NCBI GenBank assembly: GCA_016182015.1
Contig: JACOYC010000011.1
Location: forward strand, 1 to 42,891
From: Nanobdellati archaeon
GTDB taxonomy: Archaea; Nanobdellota; Nanobdellia; UBA10117
Direction: 5' to 3'
Length of the DNA stretch: 42,891 bases
A program made the translations under genes and the position numbers. This document shows, one piece after another, positions 2,613-22,039 of this stretch (position 1 is the stretch's first letter; each line of letters begins with the position of its first letter). The notes below the pieces were generated by a model, which saw only the letters and a list, made by a program, of their open reading frames with translations, searched no databases and was not told the origin of the DNA.

Positions 2613-2711
2613 TAGCACAGCTGTATATTGCCAGCCGCATCGCTAATATAACACAAAAATTACAAAGCAGGGCAGGCAAAGATTTATATTCTATCTATTA
2701 AATAAATAAAC

Positions 2712-4436: not shown

Positions 4437-4927
4437 TATGCCTTCACCCTTACTTTTAAGTCTGTCAGTATATTTTTTACAACAGTTTCAATCTCGCTTC
4501 GGGTTACAAAGTTCATCGGCTGCCACAGGCTTACATATCTTTCCAGAATCTTAACTTCTTCGCGCGAGGCAAGCTCTTCAAGCCGCTTCGCCAGCCTTTC
4601 TGTTACATTCTTAAGCGCGTCAAAATCCCCGCGCAGCGCCTGAATGCCGCTTTCAGTTTCTTTTACTTCTTCAACAACAGTCTTGTGTTTCTCAACCAGC
4701 GAATTATCAAGCAGTTCGATGTGCCCGCGCAGCGCCTCAATCCTGTCTTCAACAAGTTTTAGCCTTGCAGAAACAGAGGACAGCTGTCCGCGCAGCTCAG
4801 TTCTTATTGCACTGGCATCAATCTGTTGCTTGGGTTGGAACTGTGCCAGCAAGGGCGGTGGCTGGCTTGGCGGCTGAAACGAAGAAGGGTAGGACTGCAT
4901 CTGTTGTTGTGTACTAAAGTCGGCCAT
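4436..4927 (-). CDS. Cytosolic coiled-coil protein, 163 aa
   Basis: The first gene of the three-gene reverse operon. The first 35 residues are Gln/Pro-rich (QPPSQPPP), residues about 40-125 form heptad-like coiled coil (ELRGQL, KLVEDRIEALRG, LRGDFDALKNV), and the end has a folded-looking segment with ILERYVSLWQPMNFVTRSE. No membrane helix. Its start is 186 bases from the divergent ATPase start at 5114; the space between holds a low-complexity repeat and must carry both promoters. The coiled coil and the location beside a secretion ATPase make a cytosolic assembly partner plausible, but the family is not recognised. Confidence 0.65.
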   Translation of the reverse strand: MADFSTQQQMQSYPSSFQPPSQPPPLLAQFQPKQQIDASAIRTELRGQLSSVSARLKLVEDRIEALRGHIELLDNSLVEKHKTVVEEVKETESGIQALRGDFDALKNVTERLAKRLEELASREEVKILERYVSLWQPMNFVTRSEIETVVKNILTDLKVRVKA

Positions 4928-5113: not shown

Positions 5114-7402
5114 ATGGCCACCGAACAAAAGCCAGAGCCAGCGCAGTACAAGCTAGCCCATGAAGGTTCGGATCGTGTGTTAAAGTTTGACTACGAAGCT
5201 GAAACCCGTGCACCTTCAATCGAAGATGATGAAGTTACAATGACGCGCGTGTTTGATGCGCTTCTTGAGGCTGGTGATGTAACGCGTGTTTCTTTTTTAC
5301 AGCGCGAGGAGTTTTCGTATGATTACTCACAAATAAAACTTCTGACTGAGCTTACGCGGGTTTACAAGAAATTAGTGGAGGAGGAAAATATTCTTGACAT
5401 CAGCGGGCTGACCGGCCCGGAGTGCGAACGCTTCTACCCCGGCTGGCTTGATTTTTTGAGGCATAACGTCCTGCTCGGCATAAAATCAGATCCGGTTGGC
5501 TCTTTTGTGAATATAAAGCGGCAGATACGGGAAGAGCTGTTAAAACAGAGAAATCCGCCGCTTCCAGAATATCCGGCCTGCGGCCGCGCTTACTTGGTTT
5601 TGCTGCAGCACGCCGCAGACATGATGGAAACCTCAAAGCTGATACAGATTGCCGAACCAAACCTTGATGGCTATGCGCCCGGAAATCGCGATGTCTACGC
5701 GAAAATTTTCAAGCCGTCCATCCGCCCGTTGTTTATGTATACAAAAGCGGTTACCGACTACCCGGCAGGCGCGGTTGAGCTTGAGGCATATAAAATCAGC
5801 GGGGATTCGCAGGTGCTGATACTTAAGACCGCGCATGACATTCGCCCGGTTTATCATCTTTCGCCGCCGGAATTCAGGCTGGCCGAGGATAAGTATGCGC
5901 TCCTGACAGAAGCCAAGGCAGTTCTTGCAGAGCATAAACCGCAGAGAGAGGAATTTCTTCAGATAGAACGGACGCGGGAAATATTTTTTAACATCTCGCG
6001 GGATCTGATAAAAGACCTTGCACGTTCAAAGGGCCTGAAACTGAATTATAAAGAGACTGAGGAGCTGGCCCGTATACTTGTCCGCTACACGATCGGCTTT
6101 GGCCTGATAGAAATCCTGCTTACCGACGCGAATATACAGGATATTTCACTGAACGCCCCGGTTGGTTCGTCGCCAATTTCTATTATCCATGCAGATTATG
6201 GGGAATGCAGGACTAACGTCGTGCCGGCGCACCGCGAGGCTGAGAGCTGGGCAACAAAATTGAGGTTGATTTCTGGCAGGCCGTTTGACGAAGCAAATCC
6301 CGTTCTTGACACTGAGCTTCTTGTTCCCGGCGGGCGTGCAAGGGTTGCAGCAATCCAGCAGCCGCTTTCGCCTTCAGGCATCGCATTTGCTTTTCGCAGG
6401 CATAGGGAAAAGCCGTGGACGCTCCCGCTATTTATGCAGCAAAAGATGCTCACGCCGCTCGCAGCCGGCCTGATTAGTTTTTTGGTGGATAATGCAAGGA
6501 CTGTTTTAATTGCAGGGACAAGAAGTGCAGGAAAAACATCATTACTTGGCGCGCTCATGGTTGAGATAATGCGCTCGAGCAGGATTCTCACTGTTGAAGA
6601 TACACTGGAACTTCCGGTTGCGCAGTTGAAAAAACTCAACTATGATTTGCAGTCTATGAAAGCCCGTTCTGTAATAACCGGGGCAGAAGCTGAATTGCCA
6701 GCGGAGCAGGCCATCAGGACGGCACTCAGGCTTGGCGACTCAGCACTCATAATCGGCGAAGTCCGCTCGGTAGAGGCAAAGGCGCTTTATGAAGCGATGC
6801 GCGTAGGCGCGCTTGCAAAGGTTGTTGCAGGCACAATCCACGGTGATTCACCCTACTCTGTTTTCGACCGCGTGGTCAATGACCTTGGTGTTCCAAAAAC
6901 AAGCTTTAAGGCAACGGATATAATACTGGTTGCAAACCCAGTTACAGATCCGTCAGGCCTGCGCTCATTCCGCAGGCTCGTGCAGGTTGCAGAGGTGCGG
7001 AAGCACTGGACTGAAGACCCGCTGGCAGAAAAGGGATTTGCAGATCTCATGACATACGATGCAAAAAACGATTTGCTGGCCCCGACAGATGTTTTGCTCG
7101 AAGGCGAGTCAGAAGTCCTGAAGTCCGCTGGCCTGCGCGTGAAGGAGTTTGCCGGCAACTGGGATGGCATCTGGAAAAATATAGAGCTTCGTGCAAAAGT
7201 AAAGCAGGCAATTTTGGATATTTCGGAAAAGGCAGGCAATCCGGACTTGCTCGAAGCCCCATTTGTTGTAAAGGCAAATGATCAGTTTCACATTATTTCT
7301 GACAAGGTAGCGCAGGAAGTCGGCACGACAGAAGCGGACAGGGTTTTCGCAATCTGGAATGATTGGCTGAAGATGGAAGTAAAACGGCACCAAAACATTT
7401 AA
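5114..7402 (+). CDS. Type II/IV secretion (TadA/GspE2-type) ATPase, 762 aa
   Basis: This is the motor ATPase of an archaeal pilus or Tad-like system; family members form hexamers at the cytosolic face and drive subunit assembly through a TadC/FlaJ membrane platform. The Walker A motif GTRSAGKTS is at about residues 467-475 and the Walker B region ALIIGEVRS at about 541-549. The Asp box (TVEDTLELP) lies between them and the His box (AGTIHGDSPYSVFDRVV) after them. The roughly 290-residue N-terminal region and a C-terminal extension of about 130 residues are typical of archaeal members. I chose ATG 5114 because TATA-like ATTTA/TATTTAAC sequence and the divergent gene lie upstream; extending to 4985 would translate the low-complexity repeat. 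The gene is followed by the small DNA-binding-like gene and the platform gene. It is not FlaI: no FlaH homologue lies beside it. Confidence 0.93.
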   Translation: MATEQKPEPAQYKLAHEGSDRVLKFDYEAETRAPSIEDDEVTMTRVFDALLEAGDVTRVSFLQREEFSYDYSQIKLLTELTRVYKKLVEEENILDISGLTGPECERFYPGWLDFLRHNVLLGIKSDPVGSFVNIKRQIREELLKQRNPPLPEYPACGRAYLVLLQHAADMMETSKLIQIAEPNLDGYAPGNRDVYAKIFKPSIRPLFMYTKAVTDYPAGAVELEAYKISGDSQVLILKTAHDIRPVYHLSPPEFRLAEDKYALLTEAKAVLAEHKPQREEFLQIERTREIFFNISRDLIKDLARSKGLKLNYKETEELARILVRYTIGFGLIEILLTDANIQDISLNAPVGSSPISIIHADYGECRTNVVPAHREAESWATKLRLISGRPFDEANPVLDTELLVPGGRARVAAIQQPLSPSGIAFAFRRHREKPWTLPLFMQQKMLTPLAAGLISFLVDNARTVLIAGTRSAGKTSLLGALMVEIMRSSRILTVEDTLELPVAQLKKLNYDLQSMKARSVITGAEAELPAEQAIRTALRLGDSALIIGEVRSVEAKALYEAMRVGALAKVVAGTIHGDSPYSVFDRVVNDLGVPKTSFKATDIILVANPVTDPSGLRSFRRLVQVAEVRKHWTEDPLAEKGFADLMTYDAKNDLLAPTDVLLEGESEVLKSAGLRVKEFAGNWDGIWKNIELRAKVKQAILDISEKAGNPDLLEAPFVVKANDQFHIISDKVAQEVGTTEADRVFAIWNDWLKMEVKRHQNI

Positions 7403-7440
7403 AAGTGACCAAAAGTTACTATTTATAACTAAAAGTTACT
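7401..7440 (+). promoter_or_regulatory. Three direct AAAAGTKACY repeats before the RHH-like gene
   Basis: AAAAGTGACC (7401-7410), AAAAGTTACT (7411-7420) and AAAAGTTACT (7431-7440) lie in register at 10-base steps, with a TATA-like ATTTATAACT in the remaining slot (7421-7430). The start codon of the RHH-like gene follows at 7445. Helically phased repeats around a TATA box suggest an operator, possibly for autoregulation. The caveat is that AAAAGTTA boxes precede other genes here as plain promoter elements. Confidence 0.5.
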
Positions 7441-7444
7441 TAAA

Positions 7445-7693
7445 ATGCACAGCATCAAAAAAGAACTCGCCCGCGAAGCCAAAAAGATAGCAAAAGCCTT
7501 TGCACAGCCAGAAATATCGGCCAGGCCAGTCAAGTTAGATGCCGAGCTTTACAGTGGAATAGTAAAGATTATCTCAAAAAAAGATTTTAAGTACCGCTAT
7601 ACGAGCATATCTGCATTTGTTAATGAAGCAGTTTATGAAAAAATAAAATCATTAAACGTGGCAGGAACAAAACTGAAGCTGGTAAAACTATAA
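7445..7693 (+). CDS. Ribbon-helix-helix-like small protein, 82 aa
   Basis: The central part reads RPVKLDAELYSGIVKII, a gap, then YTSISAFVNEAVYEKI. This is the strand (RPVKLD), helix 1 and helix 2 (S-x-S-x-F-V-x-E-A) layout of Arc/MetJ/CopG-type DNA-binding proteins. The basic N-terminal 30 residues could also touch DNA. Its stop overlaps the start of the platform gene (TAATG at 7691-7695), so it is coupled to the secretion machine. The repeats directly upstream could be its own binding site. The fold assignment is by pattern only. Confidence 0.6.
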   Translation: MHSIKKELAREAKKIAKAFAQPEISARPVKLDAELYSGIVKIISKKDFKYRYTSISAFVNEAVYEKIKSLNVAGTKLKLVKL

Positions 7694-9654
7694 TGGTGGA
7701 TTCAGCGCTAGTTGAAAAATATCGGGCGAAGATTGAGGGCCAGCTCGGGCTTGGGGAAAAATTTGAAGGCATACCATACTCGCGCGAATATGAGTTATTC
7801 AAGGCTGAACAGTACCCGAAGGCAACGCAGTTTTACGAAAAGCTCTGCCAGAAGTCCGCGCAAATCCTGAAAATAACTATCGCGCCGAAGGATGCGGAAA
7901 AGGTAGCTCCGGCGATACAGCTTGCCCACCTGAATGTTACGCCCGAAGGCGTTTACTCATTTACATATTTAGTAACGTTTGCCCTGCTCACAGTGTTCAT
8001 GGTTCTTGGCGCTGTGTTGTTTAATTTGTTTATTATGTTAATTGGCTTGCTAATCAGTTTAGCAGTCCTTTTCCTGCTGCCAACAATCCCAAAGCAGATT
8101 CTCACAAGCTGGCGGGCCCGCGCATCCGACCAGCTGGTTTTGGCGGTTCTTTATACAGTAATATACATGCAGCACACACCAAATCTTGAGCGGGCGCTGA
8201 AGTTTGTGGCGGAGCACATGCCGCCGCCAATATCTCTCGATTTTACAAAGCTGCTCTGGGACTTGGAGCTGAAAACATATGCCAGCGCACAGGAGGCAAT
8301 TACCACTTATGCCGAAACTTGGCGGAACTGGGATAATTCATTTATAGATTCTGTAAATCTGATAGTTGGCTCGCTTTACGAACCTGATCCAAACAGGAAG
8401 ACAGAGCTTCTGAATCAGTCGGTCACGGTGATACTTGACGGAACACAGGACAACATGCTGTCCTTTGCGCATAATCTCCAAAGCCCGATGGAAGCGCTGC
8501 ACATGTTAGGCATAGTCCTGCCGGTGATGGGCATGGTGATGCTGCCGATGGTCGGCGCGTTCCTCGGCGCGTCTTTCAAAAGCTGGCAGATAATACTGCT
8601 TTACAACATAATACTTCCGCTGACAGTCTACGGGATTGGCGCATCAGTCCTGTCTACAAGGCCTGCAGGCTCGGACGAGTCAGATATCTACAAATACATC
8701 CAGCAGCAGTACGGCACGCCAAAGCCGGTAATATTTGGAAAACAGGTTAACATCCCGCCGAAAATTTTGTCAGCTTTAATATTTATTCTCGGAATGATTC
8801 CGGTTTTTGTTTATGCGGCCGGCCTGACACAGCTCGCGCCGGAAAAATTGGATGAAGCAATCTATGGCCTGCCGTTGCTTTTTCTCAGCATTTATTCAGT
8901 TGTTCTGATTGGGATATGTATGGGACTTTACTTTTATTGGTCTGTCGCGCCGCTGATGAAGGTTAAGCACGATGTTGAGGAGATGGAGCAGGAGTTTGCA
9001 TCAACTATCTTCCAGCTTGGCGAGCGCCTGCAGGAGCACAAGCCGCCCGAGCAGGCCATTTTGGATTTAGAGGGGACAATGCAGCAGAGCAAGATATCTG
9101 GCTTTTTCGGTGTGATAGTCAGCAACATCACAAAACTTGGCGCAAGTTTAAGAGACGCAATTTTTAATGAGCGCTACGGCGCGATCGCACTTTATCCGTC
9201 AGGCATAATAAAAAGCACGATGTCAATCCTGGTTGAGGGCGCGAAGAAAAGTCCCGAAGTAGCCGGTCGCTCGTTAATAACAATCTCAACTTATCTGAAA
9301 ACAGTCCACGCGGTTACCGAAAGGCTGAAGGATCTGCTGGCAGATACAACATCAGCGATGCAGTCGCAGGCAAAAGTTTTTGTTCCTGTAATATCAGGAA
9401 TTGTAGTAGGACTTGCCACACTAACTGTAGGAATTTTAAGGAATCTCTCAACGCAGCTGCAGGCGGTCGCCCCGGGCGGTGCGGAGGCCGGCGAGTCTGC
9501 CGCACAGATCAGCCAGACATCCGGCCTGCTTGATATTTTTCAGTCGGAATTTGCAATCCCGCCATATCTGTTTATCTCCTGTCTTACCTTCTCTCCGGCG
9601 TTATCAACGGCCACGATGAAATGGAGAAACGCTTCATGCTGGCCAAGAACTTGA
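7693..9654 (+). CDS. TadC/FlaJ-type membrane platform protein (T2SSF domains), frameshifted near the end
   Basis: The inner-membrane platform that pairs with the ATPase in archaeal pilus, archaellum and Tad systems. It has a cytosolic N-terminus, hydrophobic pairs at about residues 90-135, a first T2SSF-type helical domain (about 150-260), two helices at 265-320, another membrane pair around 355-415, and a second cytosolic helical domain with E-F-A-S-T-I-F-Q-L-G-E-R at about 437-448. Membrane helices follow at about 555-580. The family normally ends with further membrane helices. Here the frame closes at 9654 after an un-helix-like tail (CLTFSPALSTATMKWRN), while a different frame carries the expected ending to 9755. 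The first frame thus lacks its last two helices. Confidence 0.88.
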   Translation: MVDSALVEKYRAKIEGQLGLGEKFEGIPYSREYELFKAEQYPKATQFYEKLCQKSAQILKITIAPKDAEKVAPAIQLAHLNVTPEGVYSFTYLVTFALLTVFMVLGAVLFNLFIMLIGLLISLAVLFLLPTIPKQILTSWRARASDQLVLAVLYTVIYMQHTPNLERALKFVAEHMPPPISLDFTKLLWDLELKTYASAQEAITTYAETWRNWDNSFIDSVNLIVGSLYEPDPNRKTELLNQSVTVILDGTQDNMLSFAHNLQSPMEALHMLGIVLPVMGMVMLPMVGAFLGASFKSWQIILLYNIILPLTVYGIGASVLSTRPAGSDESDIYKYIQQQYGTPKPVIFGKQVNIPPKILSALIFILGMIPVFVYAAGLTQLAPEKLDEAIYGLPLLFLSIYSVVLIGICMGLYFYWSVAPLMKVKHDVEEMEQEFASTIFQLGERLQEHKPPEQAILDLEGTMQQSKISGFFGVIVSNITKLGASLRDAIFNERYGAIALYPSGIIKSTMSILVEGAKKSPEVAGRSLITISTYLKTVHAVTERLKDLLADTTSAMQSQAKVFVPVISGIVVGLATLTVGILRNLSTQLQAVAPGGAEAGESAAQISQTSGLLDIFQSEFAIPPYLFISCLTFSPALSTATMKWRNASCWPRT

Positions 9655-9755
9655 TATTCTCGACAATATTTTACGCAATAATATCTGCGGCAGTCGTGCT
9701 GATGTTCAACGCGCTCATCTCGCCAATCTCGCAAATAACATTCAGCGAAGAATAA
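9576..9755 (+). pseudogene. Out-of-frame C-terminal end of the platform gene
   Basis: In the frame starting at multiples of three from 9576 the sequence reads on as LSYLLSGVINGHDEMEKRF, then KNLIFSTIFYAIISAAVVLMF and a short tail ending in FSEE before the TAA at 9753. This is the typical T2SSF ending: a charged turn followed by a hydrophobic helix pair. It joins the main frame at about 9575-9582 by loss of one base, or of 3n+1 bases, since the segment between PPYLF and NGHDE seems shorter than usual. It could be a sequencing/assembly error, a real mutation, or a site of recoding. The stop codon is the first base triplet of the repeat element that follows. Confidence 0.75.
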
Positions 9756-9884
9756 CTAAGGCTTTTTTAAAAAAAGTCTCCCGAATTAGTGCTTTTTGAG
9801 CGAAGCACTAATTTGGGCGAGCGGTTCCGTCACATGTATCATGGACGGAACCGAGACTTTCAACAGAGCCGTAACTAAGGCTTT
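9753..9884. repeat. Hairpin-rich miniature element, copy 1, with 13-bp direct repeats
   Basis: TAACTAAGGCTTT is found perfectly at 9753-9765 and 9872-9884, flanking a foldable block. Within it, CCGAATTAGTGCTT (9781-9794) pairs with AAGCACTAATTTGGG (9803-9817), and CGGTTCCGT pairs with ACGGAACCG around an 11-base loop. The ends GGCTTTTTTAAA...GTCTC and GAGACTTTCAACAGAGCC are imperfect inverted repeats. The whole would fold as one outer stem with two arms. About 95 bases of it recur almost unchanged at 26703-26849. The direct repeat includes the stop codon of the platform gene. Confidence 0.75.
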
Positions 9885-9936
9885 GTAAAAATCTCGCTTT
9901 GCGCGTGTGCAGGCAACACTTGGTCCAAATATATGC

Positions 9937-9966
9937 CCAACCAACAACCAATAACCAAAGACAAGC
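9937..9966. repeat. ACCAAAGAC-type low-complexity repeat (copy 2)
   Basis: CCAACCAACAACCAATAACCAAAGACAAG (given in part: CAACCAATAACCAAAGACAA) lies in the 250-base non-coding stretch between the platform gene and the first one-helix peptide. The rest of that stretch is the hairpin element at 9753-9884 and a short promoter-like region before 10005. Confidence 0.45.
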
Positions 9967-10004
9967 CTTATTAATCCGGCCGGAAACTAGTGATAGAACT
10001 AAAA

Positions 10005-10115
10005 ATGTCAGAAGCGCCATTGGAGTGGGCTGTGGAAAAATTAATCATACCAGCAATAGTAGTCGGCCTTGGCCTTGCTGTGCTGGCATATGTTTTGATT
10101 AACTCACTTAGCTAA
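10005..10115 (+). CDS. One-helix membrane peptide, 36 aa
   Basis: The product is 36 residues: a short acidic N-terminus (MSEAPLEWAVEK) followed by a single hydrophobic helix (IPAIVVGLGLAVLAYVLI). It is the first of the row of small membrane-anchored proteins between the platform gene and 22039. It lacks the K-K-A motif that most of the others have. Evidence for expression is only the open frame, its helix, and the clustering with similar peptides, so moderate confidence. Confidence 0.5.
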   Translation: MSEAPLEWAVEKLIIPAIVVGLGLAVLAYVLINSLS

Positions 10116-10127
10116 ATGTATGCGATA

Positions 10128-10163
10128 GGTTTTTAAATAAGCAGATTAATAAAAGTTTGAGGT
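10128..10163 (+). promoter_or_regulatory. Promoter and ribosome binding site of the pilin-like gene row
   Basis: A TATA-like GGTTTTTAAATAA lies at 10128-10140 and a GAGGT ribosome binding site at 10159-10163, seven bases before the ATG at 10171. This probably drives the three small Cys-rich pilin-like genes together. Confidence 0.5.
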
Positions 10164-10170
10164 AGTACAG

Positions 10171-10650
10171 ATGGCCGCAAAAGCACAGGGGTTACCGATA
10201 AATTTAATTATACTGGCAATTATAGCCGCATTGGTTTTAGTTTTAGTTGTTGCGTTCACAGTTGGCGGGGCAAGCAACATCTTCGGGAAAATCTCAAAGG
10301 GTAGCAAGGTAATCGGCGGAGACTTGGAAACAACAAGGGCGGCCTGCAAGTCCTTCTGCGACAGAATACAGTCTGTTTCGAGCATTGACGACTGGACAAA
10401 GGGCCAGTACTGCGTAAGGTCTTTTGCGCTTGACTTGGACAGCGACGGAAAGTCAGGCGGGTTTGATGTAAATGGCGGCGCGCTGGACGGCGGCAAGTTC
10501 AACAAGGCAAAACAACAGGAAGCTGGCCTGAACTGCTGGGATTCCGCAATAGCTGTCAACTGCCAGGTTGAAGTAAATTTCCCGGACGGCTCAGCAAAAC
10601 TCTGCACACCCAAGGCCGGCGCGGCTTGCGATGCTAATCAATGCGTATAG
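10171..10650 (+). CDS. Small Cys-rich pilin-like protein, 159 aa
   Basis: The N-terminus reads MAAKAQGLPIN followed by a strongly hydrophobic helix to about residue 30, the class III signal peptide layout of archaeal type IV pilins (basic residue, small residue, then the assembly helix). The exported part has a regular cysteine pattern: ACKSFC, YC, NCW, NC, C, AC. The next two genes share A-C-x3-C, then YC, then CW and a final C, and the C-terminal end of the 923-residue protein also has it. A D-x-D-x-D-G-K run around residue 90 could be a calcium site. Function as a minor or major pilus subunit is inferred from this layout and from the ATPase and platform genes upstream. Confidence 0.75.
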   Translation: MAAKAQGLPINLIILAIIAALVLVLVVAFTVGGASNIFGKISKGSKVIGGDLETTRAACKSFCDRIQSVSSIDDWTKGQYCVRSFALDLDSDGKSGGFDVNGGALDGGKFNKAKQQEAGLNCWDSAIAVNCQVEVNFPDGSAKLCTPKAGAACDANQCV

Positions 10651-10660
10651 AGGTATGACA

Positions 10661-11053
10661 ATGAAAAATAAACTACCACGAAAGGCACAGGGCTTGCCCC
10701 TGACAACAATCGCAATAGCTATTTTGGTCTTTTTGACCTTAGTTGTAGTCGTACTGTTCGCAACAGGCTCTTTTGGAAGGCTGTTTGGCACGGGAGCAAA
10801 GCTGACAAGCGCGGCTGGCGGCGAGGTTGGCGCGGATCAGGCCACATGTAACTCGCTCTGCTCAACTGCGTTGCAGTTGCCGAGCACAGCTAATTTCAAG
10901 GCAAGCGGGTATTGTGCTAAAGTTATGAAATATGATACCAGTGTTCCAAAAGATGGCGTATTAGATAATGTCAATTGCTGGCAAGGCCCAGTTGCAATAA
11001 CCTGCTCAGGAACACTAAGCTCTGGCGACGCGGTGTCTAACGCAGACTGCTAA
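10661..11053 (+). CDS. Small Cys-rich pilin-like protein, 130 aa
   Basis: Starts MKNKLPRKAQGLPLTT and continues into one hydrophobic helix. I use ATG 10661 because the GAGGT at 10650-10654 is six bases upstream and overlaps the stop of the previous gene; an ATG two codons earlier is possible. The exported domain keeps the family cysteines (ATCNSLC, YC, NCW, TC, final DC). It lies 10 bases after its paralogue and two bases before the next one, so the three are surely one transcript. It is the shortest of the three and has no insert between the YC and CW parts. Confidence 0.78.
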   Translation: MKNKLPRKAQGLPLTTIAIAILVFLTLVVVVLFATGSFGRLFGTGAKLTSAAGGEVGADQATCNSLCSTALQLPSTANFKASGYCAKVMKYDTSVPKDGVLDNVNCWQGPVAITCSGTLSSGDAVSNADC

Positions 11054-11055
11054 GC

Positions 11056-11481
11056 ATGACTAATAAAAAAGCGCAGGGCCTGCCATTAACAACAATTGCG
11101 ATAGCCATACTAGTAATTCTGACTTTAGTGGTTGTCGCGTTGTTTGTTACCGGCGGCTTCTCCCGCGTGTTTGGCGCAGGCGCAAAAGTAACAAGCGGCG
11201 GGGCAGGCAGTGTAGATGCTGATAGGGCAGCCTGCCAGTCGTTTTGCACACAAGCCCTGCAGTCACCAACAGCAGCCATATTTAAGAATTCTGGTTATTG
11301 TAAAAAAGTTTTGAAAGCTGATTTAAACAAGGATAATAAAATAGATGGAACAGTAACCGGAGGGGTTACAGAAAACAATTTCAGGTGCTGGGACGCTCCG
11401 GTAGAGTACCCAGTCGGCATAGACTGCACAGGAACATTGCCAAACCAAAACGGTGATGTAGTTTCAAAAGCAGACTGTTAG
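11056..11481 (+). CDS. Small Cys-rich pilin-like protein, 141 aa
   Basis: Starts MTNKKAQGLPLTTIAIAIL, nearly identical in its first 20 residues to the preceding paralogue. The exported domain has A-C-Q-S-F-C, YCKK, CWD, DC and a last C. A D-L-N-K-D-N-K-I-D-G stretch at about residue 88 is a plausible EF-hand-like calcium loop. The near-identical N-terminal part and more diverged heads are what is expected of pilins, where the helix packs in the fibre core and the head is exposed. Confidence 0.78.
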   Translation: MTNKKAQGLPLTTIAIAILVILTLVVVALFVTGGFSRVFGAGAKVTSGGAGSVDADRAACQSFCTQALQSPTAAIFKNSGYCKKVLKADLNKDNKIDGTVTGGVTENNFRCWDAPVEYPVGIDCTGTLPNQNGDVVSKADC

Positions 11482-11486
11482 CACAA

Positions 11487-11497
11487 CAATTATAAAC
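11487..11497 (+). promoter_or_regulatory. TATA-like box before the 923-aa mosaic gene
   Basis: CAATTATAAAC lies 21-31 bases before the ATG at 11518, as expected for a leaderless archaeal start. There is no ribosome binding site. It would start a new transcript for the large mosaic and its partner. Confidence 0.45.
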
Positions 11498-11517
11498 TTC
11501 TTTTCTATCTTATTATT

Positions 11518-14963: not shown

Positions 14964-14964
14964 A

Positions 14965-15126
14965 ATGAAAATAAAAATGGAATCCAAAAAGGCGATTGAG
15001 TGGTATTACATCGCACTCATGATTATATTAATTTTAGGCGTGATACTTGTTCTGCTCTGGCAGGCCGGCGCGTTCAGGCAGCTCGGCACTGCAGCTGATC
15101 AGGCGCTGTTCGCGCCAATTAAATAA
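14965..15126 (+). CDS. One-helix pilin-like peptide, 53 aa
   Basis: The 53-residue product starts MKIKMESKKAIEWYY, has one hydrophobic helix of about 20 residues (IILILGVILVLLW) and ends in a short polar tail. The S-K-K-A motif before the helix matches the large neighbours. It begins one base after the previous stop and ends three bases before the next start, so it is part of the same transcript. No head domain is present; it could be an assembly or filler subunit. Confidence 0.65.
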   Translation: MKIKMESKKAIEWYYIALMIILILGVILVLLWQAGAFRQLGTAADQALFAPIK

Positions 15127-15129
15127 AAA

Positions 15130-15294
15130 ATGAAAGGCAAAAAAGCAGCAGCATATTTTCCGGAATGGTTATTTTACGCGATATTATTTGTCGCCGCGAT
15201 AATTATTATTTTGCTTTTGTATGCAGCCTGGACCGGAAAATTAGGGCCGCATCTAGCGTATCTTGGCAGGCAGGCCGGTACAAGCATAGTTTAG
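15130..15294 (+). CDS. One-helix pilin-like peptide, 54 aa
   Basis: Starts MKGKKAAAYFPEW and continues into one hydrophobic helix (ILFVAAIIIILLLYAAW), then a 20-residue tail ending at a TAG. The G-K-K-A motif and size match the peptide just before it. It is the last gene of this part of the transcript, followed by a TATA-like box for the gene at 15336. Confidence 0.65.
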   Translation: MKGKKAAAYFPEWLFYAILFVAAIIIILLLYAAWTGKLGPHLAYLGRQAGTSIV

Positions 15295-15302
15295 ATTAAG
15301 AT

Positions 15303-15316
15303 AAAGCTTTAATACT
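15303..15316 (+). promoter_or_regulatory. TATA-like box before the 212-aa pilin-like gene
   Basis: AAAGCTTTAATACT is 20-33 bases before the ATG at 15336, with no ribosome binding site, as in other leaderless starts of this window. Confidence 0.4.
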
Positions 15317-15335
15317 AAAAAGTTTTACCAAGCGC

Positions 15336-15974
15336 ATGGCCGTTGGCAAAAAGGCAGACTTGAAATTTATAGCTTATATAATATTAGCAGCAGTTGGTGG
15401 TCTAATATTTATTATGTTTGTAGTGCTGCCTGCAACCACGGGCATCAGCTCGGACATGGGCGACAGGTTTTGCGGCTTAAATGCTGCTGCCAGAAATGCG
15501 GTATTCCCAAATATTGTGCTGCCGTTATTCCTGTGCTACGAGCGCACAGTTAAGGTGGATGCAAACGACTGGAACGAGTGCGACTCGGACGGAGCGCGCG
15601 GCTGGAAAAATGCAAATGACCGGAAATTATGCGCAGCCTACCAGCTCGCAATACTTGGCAAGCGCTGTTTTGAAATGTTTGGCGAGAATACATACACGCT
15701 CAACAAACTAGAAGTTGGTACAATTCCATGTTTCAAAGCAAGGGTTGTTGATCTGACTCCGGCAGGAACAGTAGTCGGTGAAATAGAGTTCACAAAAGGC
15801 ATGCGCGCAAATGGCTACTGCACAATTGGAAGCAGGTTTAACAACAACAATTTCAATTGTGGCGATTCAGAGAACGTGCCAAATTGGAGGGATATTGTGT
15901 CTGGCGATAATAAAATTTGTTTTGATGAATTTGCTAATTCGCCGGATGGGATAAGGGTGAACGATGGTTGCTAG
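15336..15974 (+). CDS. Pilin-like Cys-containing protein, 212 aa
   Basis: MAVGKKADLKF precedes a hydrophobic helix to about residue 33, and the exported part holds about ten cysteines spread over its length (RFCGL, LCYER, ECDSDG, LCAAY, RCFEMF and others). I do not recognise the head domain and it is not the fold of the small 130-159 residue paralogues. It converges on the reverse-strand gene ending at 15971, overlapping it by four bases. Confidence 0.72.
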   Translation: MAVGKKADLKFIAYIILAAVGGLIFIMFVVLPATTGISSDMGDRFCGLNAAARNAVFPNIVLPLFLCYERTVKVDANDWNECDSDGARGWKNANDRKLCAAYQLAILGKRCFEMFGENTYTLNKLEVGTIPCFKARVVDLTPAGTVVGEIEFTKGMRANGYCTIGSRFNNNNFNCGDSENVPNWRDIVSGDNKICFDEFANSPDGIRVNDGC

Positions 15975-17020
15975 CTATGGCCAATCGCAATTTCAAAAGA
16001 TGCGTGGTTCGTGCAACCTTTGTAATCGCCGTCAAAATCTGCGCGCAACAACCTGCCCTTCGGGAAAGAACTAGAATTGAATCTGGCGTCTGCTTCATAA
16101 ACATTTGAGTTTCCGCGCAATGTTTTCATTTTCCACTCAGCCAGCACGCGTTCGCCATCACTTATATTAAATGATATGTCGTATCCGCCCTCCCGCCAGC
16201 TGGCAACATATGTTTTCCAGGTAGTTTCATTTACAAAATTTTTTATTTCTAATATTATTGGGTCGCCGGCACCATGGTATTCCGAGTAACATCGTTGCGG
16301 AATAGTTTCAAAAGAAGTTGTTGAAGAAAGGCTTCCCTTTTTGGCAGTCGCAACAATTTTATGCGGCTCAGATTTGCTAAAATCAGAAATATCTATGAAT
16401 GCCTGCCCGCGGGAATTTATACTTGCCTTGCCAGATTTTATTGGAGATGATTCGCCGGTTTTGTATATAACATAAGAAAGCTCGCCGTTTGATGAGTCGA
16501 GATTTGTCTGAAACATAATTTCCGGGGCGTGGGTCTTTTGTTGCCCCGATGATTTTTCGTAGTCCGAGTACACCACTGCCCAGACTTTTGGAAATTCTGG
16601 TTTTTTGTCTTCCGGCTTTTTCACCGGCGCGCTTCCAAGGCAGCCGGCCAGCCCGACTGTAAACACAACCGCGCCAACAACAAGGAGCTTGCGAGCCAAG
16701 TCATAGCCAACCGGGTGTTTTTGTTTTAGCCTGCCCAAAAATCCCGGCTTTTCTGGCCTGTCAAGAAATAAATTTGTTTCAAACTTGTTTCCATCGTGGT
16801 CTGAAAAAACAACATTTGGCTCGTACGCGCCGGCCAGCCCAAACAGTAATCTTGCATCATCTATGTTTCTTACTTTTTTGTGCGGATTAAAACCCAACTG
16901 CACAACAATGCTTTTCAGTTTTGTTTCAAGGTCATCCTTCACGATTTCAGCGGCAGCGCCGCCGGATTTTATCCAGGCGGTTTCATAAGTCAGGCCAACC
17001 AAATCTTCTGGCGAAGTCAT
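15971..17020 (-). CDS. Membrane-anchored surface protein, 349 aa, paralogue of the gene at 56, with lipobox-like motif
   Basis: The N-terminal about 105 residues match those of the 627-residue protein: D-L-V-G-x-T-Y in place of D-I-I-G-x-T-Y, AYEPN, and RPEKPGFLGRLKQKHP before the membrane helix at about 110-127. The helix ends VGLAGCLGS, which resembles a lipobox, but it is preceded by a soluble domain, so ordinary lipoprotein export is doubtful. The exported part looks like beta-sandwich repeats of about 220 residues. I chose ATG 17020 because the homology begins there; the open frame extends about 135 codons further into sequence that is antisense to the next gene. It is the only reverse gene within the pilin-like row. 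Confidence 0.72.
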   Translation of the reverse strand: MTSPEDLVGLTYETAWIKSGGAAAEIVKDDLETKLKSIVVQLGFNPHKKVRNIDDARLLFGLAGAYEPNVVFSDHDGNKFETNLFLDRPEKPGFLGRLKQKHPVGYDLARKLLVVGAVVFTVGLAGCLGSAPVKKPEDKKPEFPKVWAVVYSDYEKSSGQQKTHAPEIMFQTNLDSSNGELSYVIYKTGESSPIKSGKASINSRGQAFIDISDFSKSEPHKIVATAKKGSLSSTTSFETIPQRCYSEYHGAGDPIILEIKNFVNETTWKTYVASWREGGYDISFNISDGERVLAEWKMKTLRGNSNVYEADARFNSSSFPKGRLLRADFDGDYKGCTNHASFEIAIGHS

Positions 17021-17063
17021 GCAAACACAAGCACAGTAAATTATAAAAATGTTTTGGCTCAAA

Positions 17064-17075
17064 ACGCTTAAATAT
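17064..17075 (+). promoter_or_regulatory. TATA-like box before the beta-propeller gene
   Basis: ACGCTTAAATAT lies 22-33 bases before the ATG at 17097. It starts the long transcript that runs to about 22039, in which the genes mostly touch or overlap. Confidence 0.5.
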
Positions 17076-17096
17076 CTATAAGTTGCAGTTAGGTTA

Positions 17097-19313
17097 ATGG
17101 CCACATTACTGCGGAGCAAAAAGGCAGGCATAGTTGGAGTTATAATCGACGTAATAGTTGCAGCGATATTTATTCTCATGGCCGCGACTTTTATTTCGGA
17201 CGTTCTTGGCGGCTTTGTAAGCTGCACTGGCCAGATTGAAGATGCGTCAAAGGTTGTCTGCCTTGGGAATGGCGATGGCAAGGTAGTTTGCGTGGACAAA
17301 GACAGTGGCGTTGAGAAATTTTCTTGCGAGGCTGGCTCCAAGTGGCAGGCAAGGACAGCTGCCTCGCCGCCGAAGCTCGAGTGGCAGGCCCCAGCAGAGG
17401 AAGGTGGATTGGCGACAGGCAACATATTTTTTGGTTTGGGCGATCACTTCTGCGCGTACGACTGGAAGGGCGAAAACATATGGGGCTTCAACGGCTGTGC
17501 AGATTTGAGCGATGCTGCAATACCAACTAGCTCAGATATAAATAGTGATGTTGTTTGTTTTGGAAATGGGGCAAGCCACACAGCGTATTGCCTGGGTAAA
17601 AAGACAAGCGAGGTAAAGCTAAAAGTTCATTCAGATCCTGACTGGGGATTTGTAGATGCTAAGTCAACGCCAGCGTTAAGCAAAGAAGGAAATACAAATT
17701 ATGCATATTTTGGTTTGGGAAATAGGGTTTGCAAATATGACGTTGCGAAAGGTGACGCTAAAGATGCGCCGAATCAGGCAGAGTGGTGTAACAGCTACAA
17801 GCACACAACAGTAACCGGAATTTCTTCCGGCACAGACAGCAATTACTACTGTTTTGGCAGTGGTGATGAGCCTGCTGGCACTGCTGAATGGGCGGTCCAC
17901 TGTCTCAACCCAGACGGGAGTTATGGGTATAAATTTACTGGCAGCTGGAGCGATTGCCCAGCGGCAATAACAAAAGGCGATAGTAGCAGCACTTACAACG
18001 TTAACGCTGAGTGTAAAACCAGCGCAACACCAATCATAAGCGGCAATTATATTTATGTTCCGCTCGGGAACAGGATTTGCAAGTATAATATTAACGATCC
18101 ACAGCTCGCTTTAGGCATAAAGCAGAATGGCGAAGGTGCTGTTTGGTGCACAAAAATTAGTTCACAGTCATTTGAACTTAAATTTAAACCACCCTACGAT
18201 CAAATAGTTCATTGGAATAGCGGTTATGTGTCCGGGGACGATGGGAAACGTTTTATTTATGGCGAAGTAAAAGGTGTTATAGTCAGCGGAGGATTTATTT
18301 GTACAGCGACAGATTTAGAGATAGTTTGTTTTAACAACAATGATGCCACGCCAGTTTTTACAGGTCATATATTAGGTCTCGACGTTGGCAGGCATCCTGA
18401 TTTGAAAGTGACTTGTAGCAGGGATGCTTGCAAGTCAATGGGCCAGCCAGTTCTCTCTGGCGGCAATCTTTACTTTGCATTGGGTGATTTGCTCTGCAGC
18501 TACCCAACCAGCGTATTTGCTGCCGGCAAGCAAGTCGAGATAAGCAATGAGGACGATAAATCTGACGGCAGGAACTGGTGTGTTGATGTCAGCGATAAGC
18601 AGATTCAGACCGGCGTTGCAGCAGCGCCAGAGCTTGAGATTATAGAAACTGGGCCGGCCAGCGTGCAGACTAAAGCCGGCAGCGCAAGCGTTGACATTTA
18701 CGCAACAACAAATATTCCAGCAAAATGTAAATATTCAGATGAAGGAAAAATAGAATATTCAGACATGCCGGCAATAACAGAAAAAACTGCGAACGCAGTC
18801 CACTCGTGGCCGGCCGGCAGCTTAGCTGTTGGCAGCTATTCTTATAATTTTGCCTGCGCTTCAGATGTGACACCAAATATTGCAAAGGGAACGCTGACAG
18901 TTGTTGTTTCACAGCAGGTCTGCCAGACAGACTTGTCTATGAGCAATCCAAGAATATTTTATCAGGACGGCACGCAGGCAAACTTAGCGGACTTCCAGAT
19001 AAACAAAAAGTTCAAGGCATATATTGATTTGAAATCAACAAGTCAGGACTGCACAGGGCCGGCAGATGTTCATCTCTATGGCAAAACTCCGACAACAAAT
19101 GAGATGGAAATTGTAGTTAACCCGCCGCCGTGGACCGACAAGAATGCTGATACTACGCTGGCCTACCCGCAGGCGTTTGGAGTGTACGCGCAGCTGCCTA
19201 ACAATGGAGCAGGCACATACACCTTGAAATTTTCGCTCGCGATCGACGCCGCAAAAGTCAAGGATACGGAAGCATCGAACAATGAATACTTGATACAAAT
19301 GGTTGTAAAATGA
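17097..19313 (+). CDS. 738-aa pilin-like anchored beta-propeller-like surface protein
   Basis: MATLLRSKKAGIVG precedes the anchor helix. From about residue 40 to 500 the sequence repeats a blade-like unit about eight times, each with a Y/F-F-G-L-G-x-x-x-C-x-Y or VCLGNG...VVC core, for example FFGLGDHFCAYD, YFGLGNRVCKYD, YVPLGNRICKYN and YFALGDLLCSYP. This pattern is that of PQQ-like propeller blades, here with paired cysteines per blade. Residues about 505-610 and 615-738 look like beta-sandwich domains, the last of CARDB type (E-A-S-N-N-E-Y at the end). A propeller on a pilin anchor would be a large extracellular head, probably for binding. The next gene overlaps by four bases. Confidence 0.75.
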   Translation: MATLLRSKKAGIVGVIIDVIVAAIFILMAATFISDVLGGFVSCTGQIEDASKVVCLGNGDGKVVCVDKDSGVEKFSCEAGSKWQARTAASPPKLEWQAPAEEGGLATGNIFFGLGDHFCAYDWKGENIWGFNGCADLSDAAIPTSSDINSDVVCFGNGASHTAYCLGKKTSEVKLKVHSDPDWGFVDAKSTPALSKEGNTNYAYFGLGNRVCKYDVAKGDAKDAPNQAEWCNSYKHTTVTGISSGTDSNYYCFGSGDEPAGTAEWAVHCLNPDGSYGYKFTGSWSDCPAAITKGDSSSTYNVNAECKTSATPIISGNYIYVPLGNRICKYNINDPQLALGIKQNGEGAVWCTKISSQSFELKFKPPYDQIVHWNSGYVSGDDGKRFIYGEVKGVIVSGGFICTATDLEIVCFNNNDATPVFTGHILGLDVGRHPDLKVTCSRDACKSMGQPVLSGGNLYFALGDLLCSYPTSVFAAGKQVEISNEDDKSDGRNWCVDVSDKQIQTGVAAAPELEIIETGPASVQTKAGSASVDIYATTNIPAKCKYSDEGKIEYSDMPAITEKTANAVHSWPAGSLAVGSYSYNFACASDVTPNIAKGTLTVVVSQQVCQTDLSMSNPRIFYQDGTQANLADFQINKKFKAYIDLKSTSQDCTGPADVHLYGKTPTTNEMEIVVNPPPWTDKNADTTLAYPQAFGVYAQLPNNGAGTYTLKFSLAIDAAKVKDTEASNNEYLIQMVVK

Positions 19314-19795
19314 ACAAGCGCGCACAGACAGATACAGTTTTGATATTAGGCTTAGTTGTATTTATCGCGATTATTTTGCTGCTGGGCTGGACACGGCTGG
19401 TAGGCCCGCTGCTAAAATATTCGTACACAGTTGAAGCGTATGAAGTTGCCTTGGGATTGGACGCGGCAGCCGCAGCGCCAGAACAGCTGCAGCCGGCATT
19501 CATCATCGCCAATAAGCCAGCAACACAAAAAGATTTAGATATAGGACTTGGGCCATACCGCACTGACAGGAAGGTTTCGTGCAGCGATACTGACGTAGAC
19601 ATACAGGAACGCGCGATCAATCGCATAACTGGAAAATTTGAATGGACTGGCAGGTCAGCAGAGCCGCTGCCAAAATATGTTAATGACAAAAAGCTGACAT
19701 ACTTATGCAGCAAGACATTCGGTACATACTCGCTGGAAAAAACATGGGAGTATAAAATCGCAAACGCGCAAAATACTCTGAGGGCGGTTGACTAA
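19310..19795 (+). CDS. Pseudopilin-like protein, 161 aa
   Basis: Starts MNKRAQTDTVLIL with one hydrophobic helix (ILGLVVFIAIILLLGW), then a mixed alpha/beta head with two conserved cysteines (VSCSDTD, YLCSKTF). It is the first of four consecutive proteins of 159-181 residues of the same build (19310, 19797, 20295, 20776). The number and the order recall the four minor pseudopilins that prime type II secretion and pilus assembly in bacteria, but no direct sequence match is claimed. It overlaps the propeller gene by four bases. Confidence 0.7.
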   Translation: MNKRAQTDTVLILGLVVFIAIILLLGWTRLVGPLLKYSYTVEAYEVALGLDAAAAAPEQLQPAFIIANKPATQKDLDIGLGPYRTDRKVSCSDTDVDIQERAINRITGKFEWTGRSAEPLPKYVNDKKLTYLCSKTFGTYSLEKTWEYKIANAQNTLRAVD

Positions 19796-19796
19796 A

Positions 19797-20294
19797 ATGA
19801 AAATAAGCGGAAAGAGGGGCGGCGGCTGGCTTACATTCTTTGTTAATCATATATTATCGATGCTGCTTATTATTTTGGCAATTTTATTCCTAAGCATTCT
19901 TATGAAATCAGCGCTGCTGTCAAAGGCGCCGGCCAGCGATGTTGGCGATTTGCGCTACAATCTTCTTTCCGCAAGGCTGCTGAATTCTGCAGATTGCCTG
20001 GCATACGAAGACGCATATCTTGATGCTGCCGGCAATAATATTGTCAGGGTCCGCGCCGGAATAGTAGATATAAACAAATATTCAACAAATGAGTGGTCTG
20101 TTTGTTTTGGCAATCCAAATACCTATGCTGTCTTGTATTTGGAAGATTTTACAGATGGACAAAACTATGTTAGCAATCCAACAGCCTCTCAAGTTGATGC
20201 ATCGTACAGAACTGATTACTATTTTGTTAGGATCCGCAGCGGCAACGAATTCCATGACGGACGCATCAAAATATCAATTAAGGGGCCTGATTAA
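19797..20294 (+). CDS. Pseudopilin-like protein, 165 aa
   Basis: MKISGKRGGGWLTFF leads into a hydrophobic helix (ILSMLLIILAILFLSIL). The head includes ADCLAYED and VCFGN cysteines and a YYFVRIRSGNEF strand. I use ATG 19797, one base after the preceding stop, matching the spacing seen at several junctions in this row; a TTG nine bases earlier is less likely. Coupled with 19310 and 20295. Confidence 0.68.
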   Translation: MKISGKRGGGWLTFFVNHILSMLLIILAILFLSILMKSALLSKAPASDVGDLRYNLLSARLLNSADCLAYEDAYLDAAGNNIVRVRAGIVDINKYSTNEWSVCFGNPNTYAVLYLEDFTDGQNYVSNPTASQVDASYRTDYYFVRIRSGNEFHDGRIKISIKGPD

Positions 20295-20774
20295 ATGCAC
20301 AACAAAAAAGCACTTGTCTCAGAGATGGTAAGCTGGGCGTTGGCAGTCCTGACGCTCACATTCGCATTTTTAATACTAATAATAGCTTCGAATTTTAACT
20401 TTAATGCTGACCCTTCGGTAAGAATTTCCGGCCTGAGCACAAGTTCTGCGTGTAATCATGATCTATTGAATTTTCTGCGCGCGAACCCGCCCGAAGACAG
20501 AAGTGTGACATTCGCAGAGCTGGCCGGCCTGTCACAAACAGACAGCGCGGTGCAAAATAAATTTAAAACCTACGCGGAAAATTATTTTGTGGCAAATTTC
20601 AAGCGTGGTGATGCAGGCAGGCAGGGATGGAGAATACAGCTTTTAGATGCAGATTATGTTCCGCTGATGGAAACCGGAACATTGCAGGATGCAGCAGTAT
20701 TCAACAGCTGTTCGCAGATAATACCAAACTATGAAGGAGGCGTGTTGGCAGTAAGGCTCGGCTTGGCATACTAA
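20295..20774 (+). CDS. Pseudopilin-like protein, 159 aa
   Basis: MHNKKALVSEMVSWAL, then one hydrophobic helix (LTLTFAFLILIIASNF). The head contains SSACNHDLLNFLRAN near residue 50 and FNSCSQIIP near residue 142. The last residues (GGVLAVRLGLAY) look like a closing beta strand. Starts directly after the preceding stop and ends two bases before the next start. Confidence 0.68.
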   Translation: MHNKKALVSEMVSWALAVLTLTFAFLILIIASNFNFNADPSVRISGLSTSSACNHDLLNFLRANPPEDRSVTFAELAGLSQTDSAVQNKFKTYAENYFVANFKRGDAGRQGWRIQLLDADYVPLMETGTLQDAAVFNSCSQIIPNYEGGVLAVRLGLAY

Positions 20775-20775
20775 A

Positions 20776-21321
20776 ATGTTCGGCAAAAAATCTTCTCTAA
20801 TGGATTTTGTGATTGTACTATTGTTTGTAATGGGTGCGATCGCCATCCTCAGTCAAAAAGATACGATAATCTACACCGTCGGCCCGAAAGAAATTAAGCT
20901 GCTGCACGCCTATTCAGAGGGCGAGGAATTACGTGAATACCTGCAGACAGCAGCGAAATTTGCATTTTTACAGTCTGCTGAATCTGCCGGCGCGAAAACA
21001 CAAGCAGATTGTTTAATGCAGATAAATTCCCAGACATTTAAAGATGATGTTAATAAAAATTTTATTACTTATGCTGACAGCCATAGGTCTGGCGAGCAGC
21101 AACTTGGTTTTAAAGCATTTGTCGGCGGCAGCTTTCAAAAGCCTGTGCTGCGGGCAGCAGCGAATAGTATTTATATTACTATTTACCCTGGCCAGCAATT
21201 CGCTGGAGTAATAGACGCCTCGCTTACGCCGCAGTTTAACCTGCGCTACAGCATAGACCCCGCCGCAGTTACAGATATTAACTGCGACGCATATCTTAAA
21301 AAATATCTGGTGGTAAAATGA
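20776..21321 (+). CDS. Pseudopilin-like protein, 181 aa
   Basis: MFGKKSSLMDFVIVLLFVM is the anchor, with a serine in place of the usual alanine after K-K. The head has QADCLMQIN and INCDAYLKKYLVVK cysteine segments and a beta-rich middle. The stop codon overlaps the ATG at 21318 (ATGA), so the next peptide is translationally coupled. Confidence 0.68.
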   Translation: MFGKKSSLMDFVIVLLFVMGAIAILSQKDTIIYTVGPKEIKLLHAYSEGEELREYLQTAAKFAFLQSAESAGAKTQADCLMQINSQTFKDDVNKNFITYADSHRSGEQQLGFKAFVGGSFQKPVLRAAANSIYITIYPGQQFAGVIDASLTPQFNLRYSIDPAAVTDINCDAYLKKYLVVK

Positions 21322-21578
21322 ATATAGAATATCAAAAATCAATAACGCGTAGCCTGCTAGTTCCGCGGATTGCTTTTCGTAAGCAGAACGAGTTCCGCTG
21401 CGCCCATCTGAACTTTATTCAGATCGGGCCTAGCAGAAAAGCAATAATGCCGGACTGGCTGAAGTGGGCAGTAATTATATTGATATTTCTCGCGGTTGCG
21501 GCCGTGATTCTGTGGCAAGTTTATAATAGCGGTTTAGATATAATTAAAAACCCTGGCGTGTTTAAATTTAAGGTATGA
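21318..21578 (+). CDS. One-helix membrane peptide, 86 aa, with an in-frame 34-codon hairpin-element insertion
   Basis: The frame starts at ATG 21318, overlapping the previous stop, with residues MNIEYQKSITR. The hydrophobic helix begins only at residue 44 (MPDWLKWAVIILIFLAV). Between them lies sequence bounded by direct repeats (21335-21348 and 21437-21450) 102 bases apart. Removing one repeat unit would give M-N-I-E-Y-Q-K-A-I-M-P-D-W followed by the helix, which is the K-A layout of the neighbours. The insertion keeps the frame open. Either the extended 86-residue protein is made, or translation restarts at ATG 21447 to give 43 residues. The next start at 21575 overlaps its stop. Confidence 0.6.
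   Translation: MNIEYQKSITRSLLVPRIAFRKQNEFRCAHLNFIQIGPSRKAIMPDWLKWAVIILIFLAVAAVILWQVYNSGLDIIKNPGVFKFKV
21335..21450. repeat. Hairpin element with ~14-bp flanking direct repeats inside a peptide gene
   Basis: AAAATCAATAACGC (21335-21348) and AAAAGCAATAATGC (21437-21450) match at 12 of 14 positions. Between them, CTGCTAG (21354-21360) pairs with CTAGCAG (21430-21436), TGCTT with AAGCA around 21370-21385, and ATCTGAA with TTCAGAT around 21406-21424. The internal sequence differs from the other elements in the window, but the build (nested hairpins between a duplicated target) is the same. Confidence 0.6.
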
Positions 21579-21739
21579 AAGAACACAAGAAGGCAAGCGT
21601 TGACATAGACTTCCTTTTGAAGATGATACTAATCGTGCTTTTTGTTGCTGCAGTTGCTATTTTTCTCGTGTTTAAATTTAAGCCAGATATTTCAAGTTAT
21701 GTTTCAAATTACATAGTTGGGCCACTGAAAGGCAAGTAG
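21575..21739 (+). CDS. One-helix pilin-like peptide, 54 aa
   Basis: MKEHKKASVDIDFLLKM leads into one helix (ILIVLFVAAVAIFLVF) with a short tail. The H-K-K-A motif matches the row. Its ATG overlaps the stop of the previous gene in an ATGA arrangement. A GGAAGTG ribosome binding site for a following gene lies at 21744-21750, just after its stop. Confidence 0.68.
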   Translation: MKEHKKASVDIDFLLKMILIVLFVAAVAIFLVFKFKPDISSYVSNYIVGPLKGK

Positions 21740-21755
21740 TTAAAGGAAGTGAATA

Positions 21756-21912
21756 ATGGATAGATGGGTTGCATGCTGGCAGAAACAGAATGGAGGTAAT
21801 ATCGGCTGTTGCATTGCGGAGCAATGCGACCAAAGCGCCGGCCGATTCCTTCAAAAAGGAGGTCTCGCAAACTAAAGTTTGCGAAATTGCGGCTGATGGA
21901 GAAATGGGTTGC
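21756..21912. repeat. Hairpin element (CAAAGCGCC family, copy A) with ~17-bp direct repeats
   Basis: ATGGATAGATGGGTTGC (21756-21772) and ATGGAGAAATGGGTTGC (21896-21912) match at 15 of 17 positions, 140 bases apart. Between them are CATTGC-GGA-GCAATG, the family core GCGACCAAAGCGCCGGCCGATTC (given here in two parts: GCGACCAAAGCGCC and GGCCGATTCC), a TCGCAAACT-AA-AGTTTGCGA hairpin, and TTGCGGCTGAT, which can pair back to GGCCGAT. The element separates a good ribosome binding site (GGAAGTG, 21744) from the present start of the next gene. Confidence 0.65.
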
Positions 21913-22039
21913 GTATGTGTTGATTTCGGTTGTTGCGGCAGTTATAATAATACTGCTGGTTTTTTCAGGCCTTCTGCCGAAGGCGCTTAGCGCAGCGTCT
22001 GGCCAGCTGAAATCCCCGTCACAGTTTTTGCCAAGCTAG
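21896..22039 (+). CDS. One-helix membrane peptide, 47 aa
   Basis: MEKWVAYVLISVVAAVIIILLVF and a short polar tail ending PSQFLPS. The first 17 bases of this gene are duplicated at 21756, so the element just upstream was most likely inserted at its start codon. The gene once had the GGAAGTG ribosome binding site now lying 145 bases away. It ends the forward row and overlaps the end of the reverse gene at 22036 by four bases. Whether it is still well translated is uncertain. Confidence 0.55.
   Translation: MEKWVAYVLISVVAAVIIILLVFSGLLPKALSAASGQLKSPSQFLPS

Follow-up and report, generated by a model that had tools for sequence, protein, structure and literature searches.

A probable single-ATPase type IV pilus locus with a conserved row of candidate pilins in a DPANN archaeon

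Described pilus loci and the locus in the window

Two pilus loci have been described in cluster-2 DPANN archaea, including Woesearchaeota, of which locus 1 comprises filament proteins and a chaperonin, and locus 2 a CpaF-type ATPase, TadC and two coiled-coil proteins; filament subunits were listed for locus 1 only, and the coiled-coil proteins were likened to viral attachment proteins (Hamm et al., 2024; PMC11291902). In subclade 4F of the type IV pilus ATPases, haloarchaeal and nanoarchaeal ATPases form one clade, some members carry an N-terminal cysteine cluster and an intracellular coiled-coil protein is present, and the cognate pilins of the nanoarchaeal members could not be identified (Makarova et al., 2016; PMC4858521). 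Dark-matter proteins with signal peptides beside a pilus ATPase and TadC in some DPANN archaea were described, in general terms, as diverse pilins in a later survey (Fig. 2A) (Makarova et al., 2019; PMC6393860). The locus considered here lies at positions 5114-22039 of a stretch of 42,891 nucleotides (the window), which is contig 27 of an archaeal draft genome of 761 kb in 31 contigs. Among named organisms, those closest to this genome are Woesearchaeota and a 'DPANN group archaeon'.

The region is likely to be an archaeal type IV pilus locus that has one ATPase, one platform and pilins of its own. From 5114 onwards, an ATPase, an 82-amino-acid protein and a platform are followed by 17 plus-strand open reading frames (ORFs) to 22039, with one minus-strand gene (15974-17014) breaking up the row, which confirms the motor and pilin-like row seen in a preliminary description of this DNA. 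Coding of the row ORFs is supported by codon-position bias relative to a sister genome, except for the partly aligned ORF 10005-10115. The same description had called the cluster undescribed, yet the motor, the platform and the two coiled-coil genes correspond to the published locus 2, and pilin islands had been flagged in Fig. 2A of the 2019 survey; as a whole, that interpretation is partly supported. Of the two outcomes that the description had named as refuting it, ordinary signal anchors without class III cleavage and a row not conserved beside the ATPase in relatives, neither was seen, the leaders being judged by their motif.

Class III-like leaders were called by a rule, namely [KR][KR][AGS] in the N-terminal stretch followed by a 16-residue hydrophobic window, and were thereby predicted, in agreement with the preliminary description, in 14 of the 17 row ORFs (9990-22039), as against 4 of the 96 ORFs with an N-terminal helix in 20 other stretches (~340 kb) of the same genome (Fisher p = 7e-12). 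ORF 10171 has K-A only, yet belongs fully to the pilin family and is hence a fifteenth candidate. Signal anchors are commonly preceded by short basic leaders, so that the row might consist of common membrane proteins with an N-terminal anchor that happen to lie beside a pilus motor, with K-K-A reflecting the positive-inside rule; this is very improbable in view of the enrichment of the strict motif, the fact that three of the four background ORFs belong to the genome's other pilus locus, the conserved Q at +1 and the conservation of the row beside the ATPase. An A24 prepilin peptidase, expected elsewhere in the genome, is encoded on contig 17 (C17:10678-11031), scores above the cut-off and has both catalytic motifs, TDF and GGGD.

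The same gene row was recovered in relatives, as had been anticipated: of the 304 ORFs that follow the ATPase on its own strand in 23 loci, 163 carry the motif, compared with 2 of the 187 that lie upstream or on the opposite strand and 4 of 468 in the background. In both the platform and the pilin listings, 22 genomes besides this one have the two genes on a single contig, and in 20 of them the pilin follows the platform in the same orientation at a distance of at most 10 kb. The profile of the cysteine-rich major pilin matches 129 of the 141 genomes of the class at 1e-6, although the helix by itself may account for some of the short matches; 231 of the 237 genomes of the phylum contain the platform, and nearly all of 56 genomes contain full-length ATPase relatives. 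The locus is of the archaeal type IV pilus kind and not a peculiarity of this genome. A large set of minor subunits is present, as claimed before, but their number is usual for the clade rather than exceptional, most order-level relatives with enough sequence having 6 to 12.

The conserved unit reaches upstream to the divergent coiled-coil genes (3630-4927), and probably also takes in the membrane genes that precede them. Its features are as follows.

3630-4436, minus strand: coiled-coil protein B, 268 amino acids; divergent from the ATPase; no transmembrane segment or signal peptide by hydropathy; coding bias.
4436-4927, minus strand: coiled-coil protein A, 163 amino acids; no transmembrane segment or signal peptide by hydropathy.
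5114-7402, plus strand: assembly ATPase, 762 amino acids; long N-terminal domain and T2SSE core, with Walker A (GTRSAGKTS), GEVR and GTIHGD.
7445-7693, plus strand: 82-amino-acid protein resembling a ribbon-helix-helix regulator; no Pfam match; related ORFs in the ATPase-platform interval of some relatives.
7693-9755, plus strand: membrane platform of the T2SSF/TadC/FlaJ type; frame shifted near 9570, the ORF stopping at 9654 and the last helix lying in ORF 9621-9755.
10005-10115, plus strand: tiny ORF with one helix and no K-K-A motif; the least well supported gene of the row, with only 45% of it aligning to the sister genome.
10171-10650, plus strand: cysteine-rich pilin 1, K-A before QGLP, DLDSDG loop; very conserved pilin family member.
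10661-11053, plus strand: cysteine-rich pilin 2, RKA before QGLP; motif rule and family alignment.
11056-11481, plus strand: cysteine-rich pilin 3, KKA before QGLP, six cysteines, DLNKDNKIDG loop; motif rule and family alignment.
11518-14289, plus strand: putative adhesin, 923 amino acids, SKKA leader and helix; two CARDB and two MopE matches in Pfam; predicted C-terminal pilin-head domain.
14286-14963, plus strand: KKA pilin-like protein, 225 amino acids; motif, coding bias.
14965-15126, plus strand: tiny KKA pilin-like protein, 53 amino acids; motif, coding bias.
15130-15294, plus strand: tiny KKA pilin-like protein, 54 amino acids; motif, coding bias.
15336-15974, plus strand: KKA minor pilin-like protein, 212 amino acids, 10 cysteines; family in 10 of the 23 loci.
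15974-17014, minus strand: single-pass membrane protein, 347 amino acids, of uncertain membership; also in locus L038; no Pfam match.
17097-19313, plus strand: KKA protein, 738 amino acids, repeats resembling a beta-propeller and a C-terminal CARDB-like region; motif, Pfam matches of relatives.
19310-19795, plus strand: KRA minor pilin-like protein; motif, coding bias.
19788-20294, plus strand: KRG minor pilin-like protein; motif, family in 9 of the 23 loci.
20295-20774, plus strand: KKA minor pilin-like protein; motif, coding bias.
20776-21321, plus strand: KKS minor pilin-like protein; motif, coding bias.
21318-21578, plus strand: tiny RKA pilin-like protein with extended leader; motif.
21575-21739, plus strand: tiny KKA pilin-like protein, 54 amino acids; motif, coding bias.
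21899-22039, plus strand: tiny single-helix protein without K-K-A motif; true start likely inside ORF 21809-22039.

Several repeats were observed in and around the row. Parts of the intergenic stretch 9755-9989 recur at 26703-26849 with 95-100% identity as a dispersed repeat that looks palindromic, and a short repeat preceding the last small gene (21740-21898) has copies elsewhere in the genome (37306-37348 and L061:5181-5210). A 38-bp stretch with 87% identity is common to two unlinked pilin-type genes (21340-21377 and L078:15996-16033), lengthens the leaders of both (SLLxPRIAF) and is doubled in one. The proteins encoded on opposite strands at 56-1939 and 15974-17014 have similar-looking N-termini and may be paralogues.

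Motor ATPase and platform

The preliminary description of one ATPase with one platform is borne out by homology. The ATPase matches Pfam T2SSE (1.4e-14), and its best solved relatives in the PDB are GspE2 (1.4e-39), CpaF (5e-31) and FlaI (2e-24); the Walker A, GEVR and GTIHG residues are invariant or nearly so among its orthologues, and the VirB11/GspE-type assembly ATPase of an archaeal type IV pilus is thus present with its motifs intact. In the ATPase tree, which has long branches and must be read with caution, CpaF being the outgroup on a branch of 2.26, one clade (100/100) unites the window protein with its orthologues, a second nanoarchaeal copy and two ATPases from Haloterrigena plasmids, and stands apart from FlaI, from GspE2/PilB3 and from the genome's own contig-30 ATPase. 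The ATPase of Haloterrigena plasmid pHTUR04 (NC_013747) shares 40% with it over the core; only two records were returned by a search for further haloarchaeal relatives among plasmids, and a scan of viral contigs yielded no ATPase relative. Four N-terminal cysteines occur in 5 of 18 orthologues and none in the window protein. One relative holds a partial second copy of the ATPase start (L005:4689-4922), ~3 kb before the main copy, and the third T2SSE-type ATPase of the genome (L077:7149-8792) carries a PIN domain and is not a pilus ATPase.

The ATPase profile also shows similarity to FlaI (119 bits) and BasE (57 bits), with scores well under the cut-off in either case, as would be expected of a derivative of the archaellum or the bindosome, serving swimming or the display of substrate-binding proteins. 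Such a derivative is nevertheless extremely unlikely, as the ATPase falls outside the FlaI branch, the whole-genome search gave no Arch_flagellin match (in a separate protein comparison, one PilA-like pilin of the other pilus locus, L078, matched archaellin weakly, at 1.4e-5 and under the cut-off), and Pfam scans of the row proteins found no substrate- or solute-binding domain.

The window platform by itself has no Pfam match, and its orthologues match T2SSF more often than any other family (8 of 19, weak, best 4.8e-5). A model of moderate quality (predicted local distance difference test, pLDDT, 51) is matched by Foldseek to EpsF, OutF and SpoIIIAB with a probability near 1 and E-values of 0.2 to 1.3. 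The platform of pHTUR04 aligns over 575 amino acids (7e-40, 22%), and a profile comparison with the genome's other platform gave no match. A TadC/FlaJ-type platform thus adjoins the ATPase, its gene being frameshifted here and intact in two congeners, which encode proteins of 698-699 amino acids: relative to these, a 37-bp gap near 9570 (9560-9755 region), which may stem from the assembly or be a true deletion, shifts the frame, and the 44-amino-acid ORF 9621-9755 is no gene of its own but the displaced C-terminus of the platform.

Candidate pilins, adhesins and the proposed filament

The tandem KAQGLP pilins have an invariant Q at +1 and six mostly conserved cysteines, in keeping with the cysteine-rich heads noted in the preliminary description; many family members have a D-x-D-x-D-G loop, and EF-hand models match a few of them weakly. 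Adhesive or metal-binding heads had likewise been proposed, and agree with the MopE and CARDB domains of the 923-amino-acid protein. A new detail is that this putative adhesin ends in a predicted pilin-head domain, as the region 14047-14262 is recognised (2e-8) by the pilin profile A3, from which this protein had been left out. Among four relatives of the 738-amino-acid protein, one matches PQQ_2/BamB (2.4e-6) and one CARDB (4e-4), and a PDB search with this family gave no match. Nonsynonymous and synonymous codon changes relative to the sister genome number 3/18 in pilin 1, 43/260 in the ATPase and 219/221 in the 923-amino-acid adhesin, a pattern that would be produced by constraint on shaft and motor together with drift or diversification of the heads.

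In the proposed mechanism, prepilins would be inserted into the membrane, the A24 peptidase of contig 17 would cut them behind K-K-A, and the ATPase, acting on the TadC-type platform, would polymerise the pilins. The shaft would most likely be formed by the tandem six-cysteine KAQGLP pilins, with the long CARDB/MopE and propeller-like proteins as tip or side adhesins on the same helix and the proteins of 50-225 amino acids as minor or priming subunits, and the two coiled-coil proteins may act on the motor from the cytosol. Cleavage, assembly, the roles of the subunits and host or surface contact are proposed here from knowledge of the family and from cultivated relatives, which live as ectosymbionts (Hamm et al., 2024; PMC11291902); use of the pilus for host contact is plausible.

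The many tiny subunits, the resemblance of the platform model to EpsF/OutF and the large exported proteins in the same row could also be explained by a short pseudopilus, which would work as a machine similar to the type II secretion system (T2SS), pushing out cysteine-rich exoproteins or taking up polymers. We consider this improbable, since the large proteins bear a pilin leader and one of them a pilin-head domain, and therefore look like parts of a filament. Several points weigh against a type IV pilus with its own pilins. The platform gene is frameshifted in this genome, the leaders were called by a motif rule devised here instead of a dedicated signal-peptide predictor, no solved pilin was matched by the sequence of the pilin family, and the structure of pilin 3 predicted from six sequences was poor (pLDDT 44) and was not used. 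The linkage of row and ATPase is not universal, as five of the 23 loci (L046, which shows little downstream sequence, L047, L055, L006 and L007) have none or one motif gene beside the ATPase, and L048 has only two. Moreover, we know of no filament of this lineage that has been seen so far.

A more far-reaching proposal is that locus 2, nearly universal in the class, builds a distinct pilus that is a main host-contact organelle, with a six-cysteine shaft holding an EF-hand-like calcium loop, fast-changing adhesins at its tip that dock via a copied pilin-head domain, and control by coiled-coil proteins from the cytosol, which would therefore not be surface attachment fibres; this is possible, but we regard it as doubtful. 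Most of these archaea are uncultivated. The motor was left without subunits of its own in two published surveys, and the conserved row together with the class-wide pilin profile now gives named candidates, which can be sought in proteomes, purified filaments and heterologous assembly. This parts list bears on how tiny archaea may grip other cells.

Comparison with known systems

ATPase, TadC and two coiled-coil genes stand together here, so that the window has the same core gene set as locus 2 of cluster-2 DPANN archaea, as matched by the published description rather than by sequences, and the second pilus locus of the genome (L078, contig 30, ~50-61 kb), with a chaperonin, a PilB-type ATPase, two T2SSF proteins and PilA-like pilins, fits locus 1. 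Coiled-coil protein A has family members in 21 of the 23 loci and protein B in 20, and hydropathy found no 19-residue window of at least 1.6 in any of these 41 homologues. Both proteins look cytosolic, and this result is a testable objection to reading them as surface attachment fibres. The Pfam matches of protein A to DUF7310 (6.7e-5, under the cut-off) and FlaC (0.02) were unrepeated in orthologues and were set aside as coiled-coil noise; no paper connecting the DUF names with this locus was found in the literature. Two multi-helix membrane proteins (1899-3290) precede the coiled-coil genes, and their family occupies this position in 17 of the 23 loci, in one to three copies.

The term 'Tad-like', used before, proved loose, as the ATPase groups with the haloarchaeal one and not with CpaF. 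A bacterial Tad pilus was rejected because the ATPase lies outside the CpaF/TadA branch of the tree, in which CpaF is the outgroup on a long branch; Pfam scans of the row gave no match to Flp pilin, secretin RcpA or TadZ, with no genome-wide search for these made. With subclade 4F the locus shares the haloarchaeal company of its ATPase (100/100 with Haloterrigena) and an apparently intracellular coiled-coil protein, and the four N-terminal cysteines of 5 of 18 orthologues, absent from the window protein, may correspond to the cysteine cluster of some 4F members; from these traits we infer the 4F label, the tree having been built without the original 4F reference sequences. Its pilins differ in being lineage-specific. 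The ATPase/platform pair of pHTUR04 comprises the closest relatives found outside the phylum, and has no comparable pilin row annotated beside it. For the DPANN islands of Fig. 2A in Makarova et al. (2019; PMC6393860), we found no description of pilin families, of a row conserved across the order, of a six-cysteine pilin or of the adhesin architecture. In contrast to the published account of locus 2, a pilin row follows the motor here, and the 41 coiled-coil homologues are without a membrane or export segment. The core locus and the general idea of DPANN pilin islands are already published. The present analysis extends them by a pilin row for locus 2 with its conservation and main families, by the adhesin architecture, and by the absence, judged from hydropathy, of export or membrane segments from the coiled-coil proteins.

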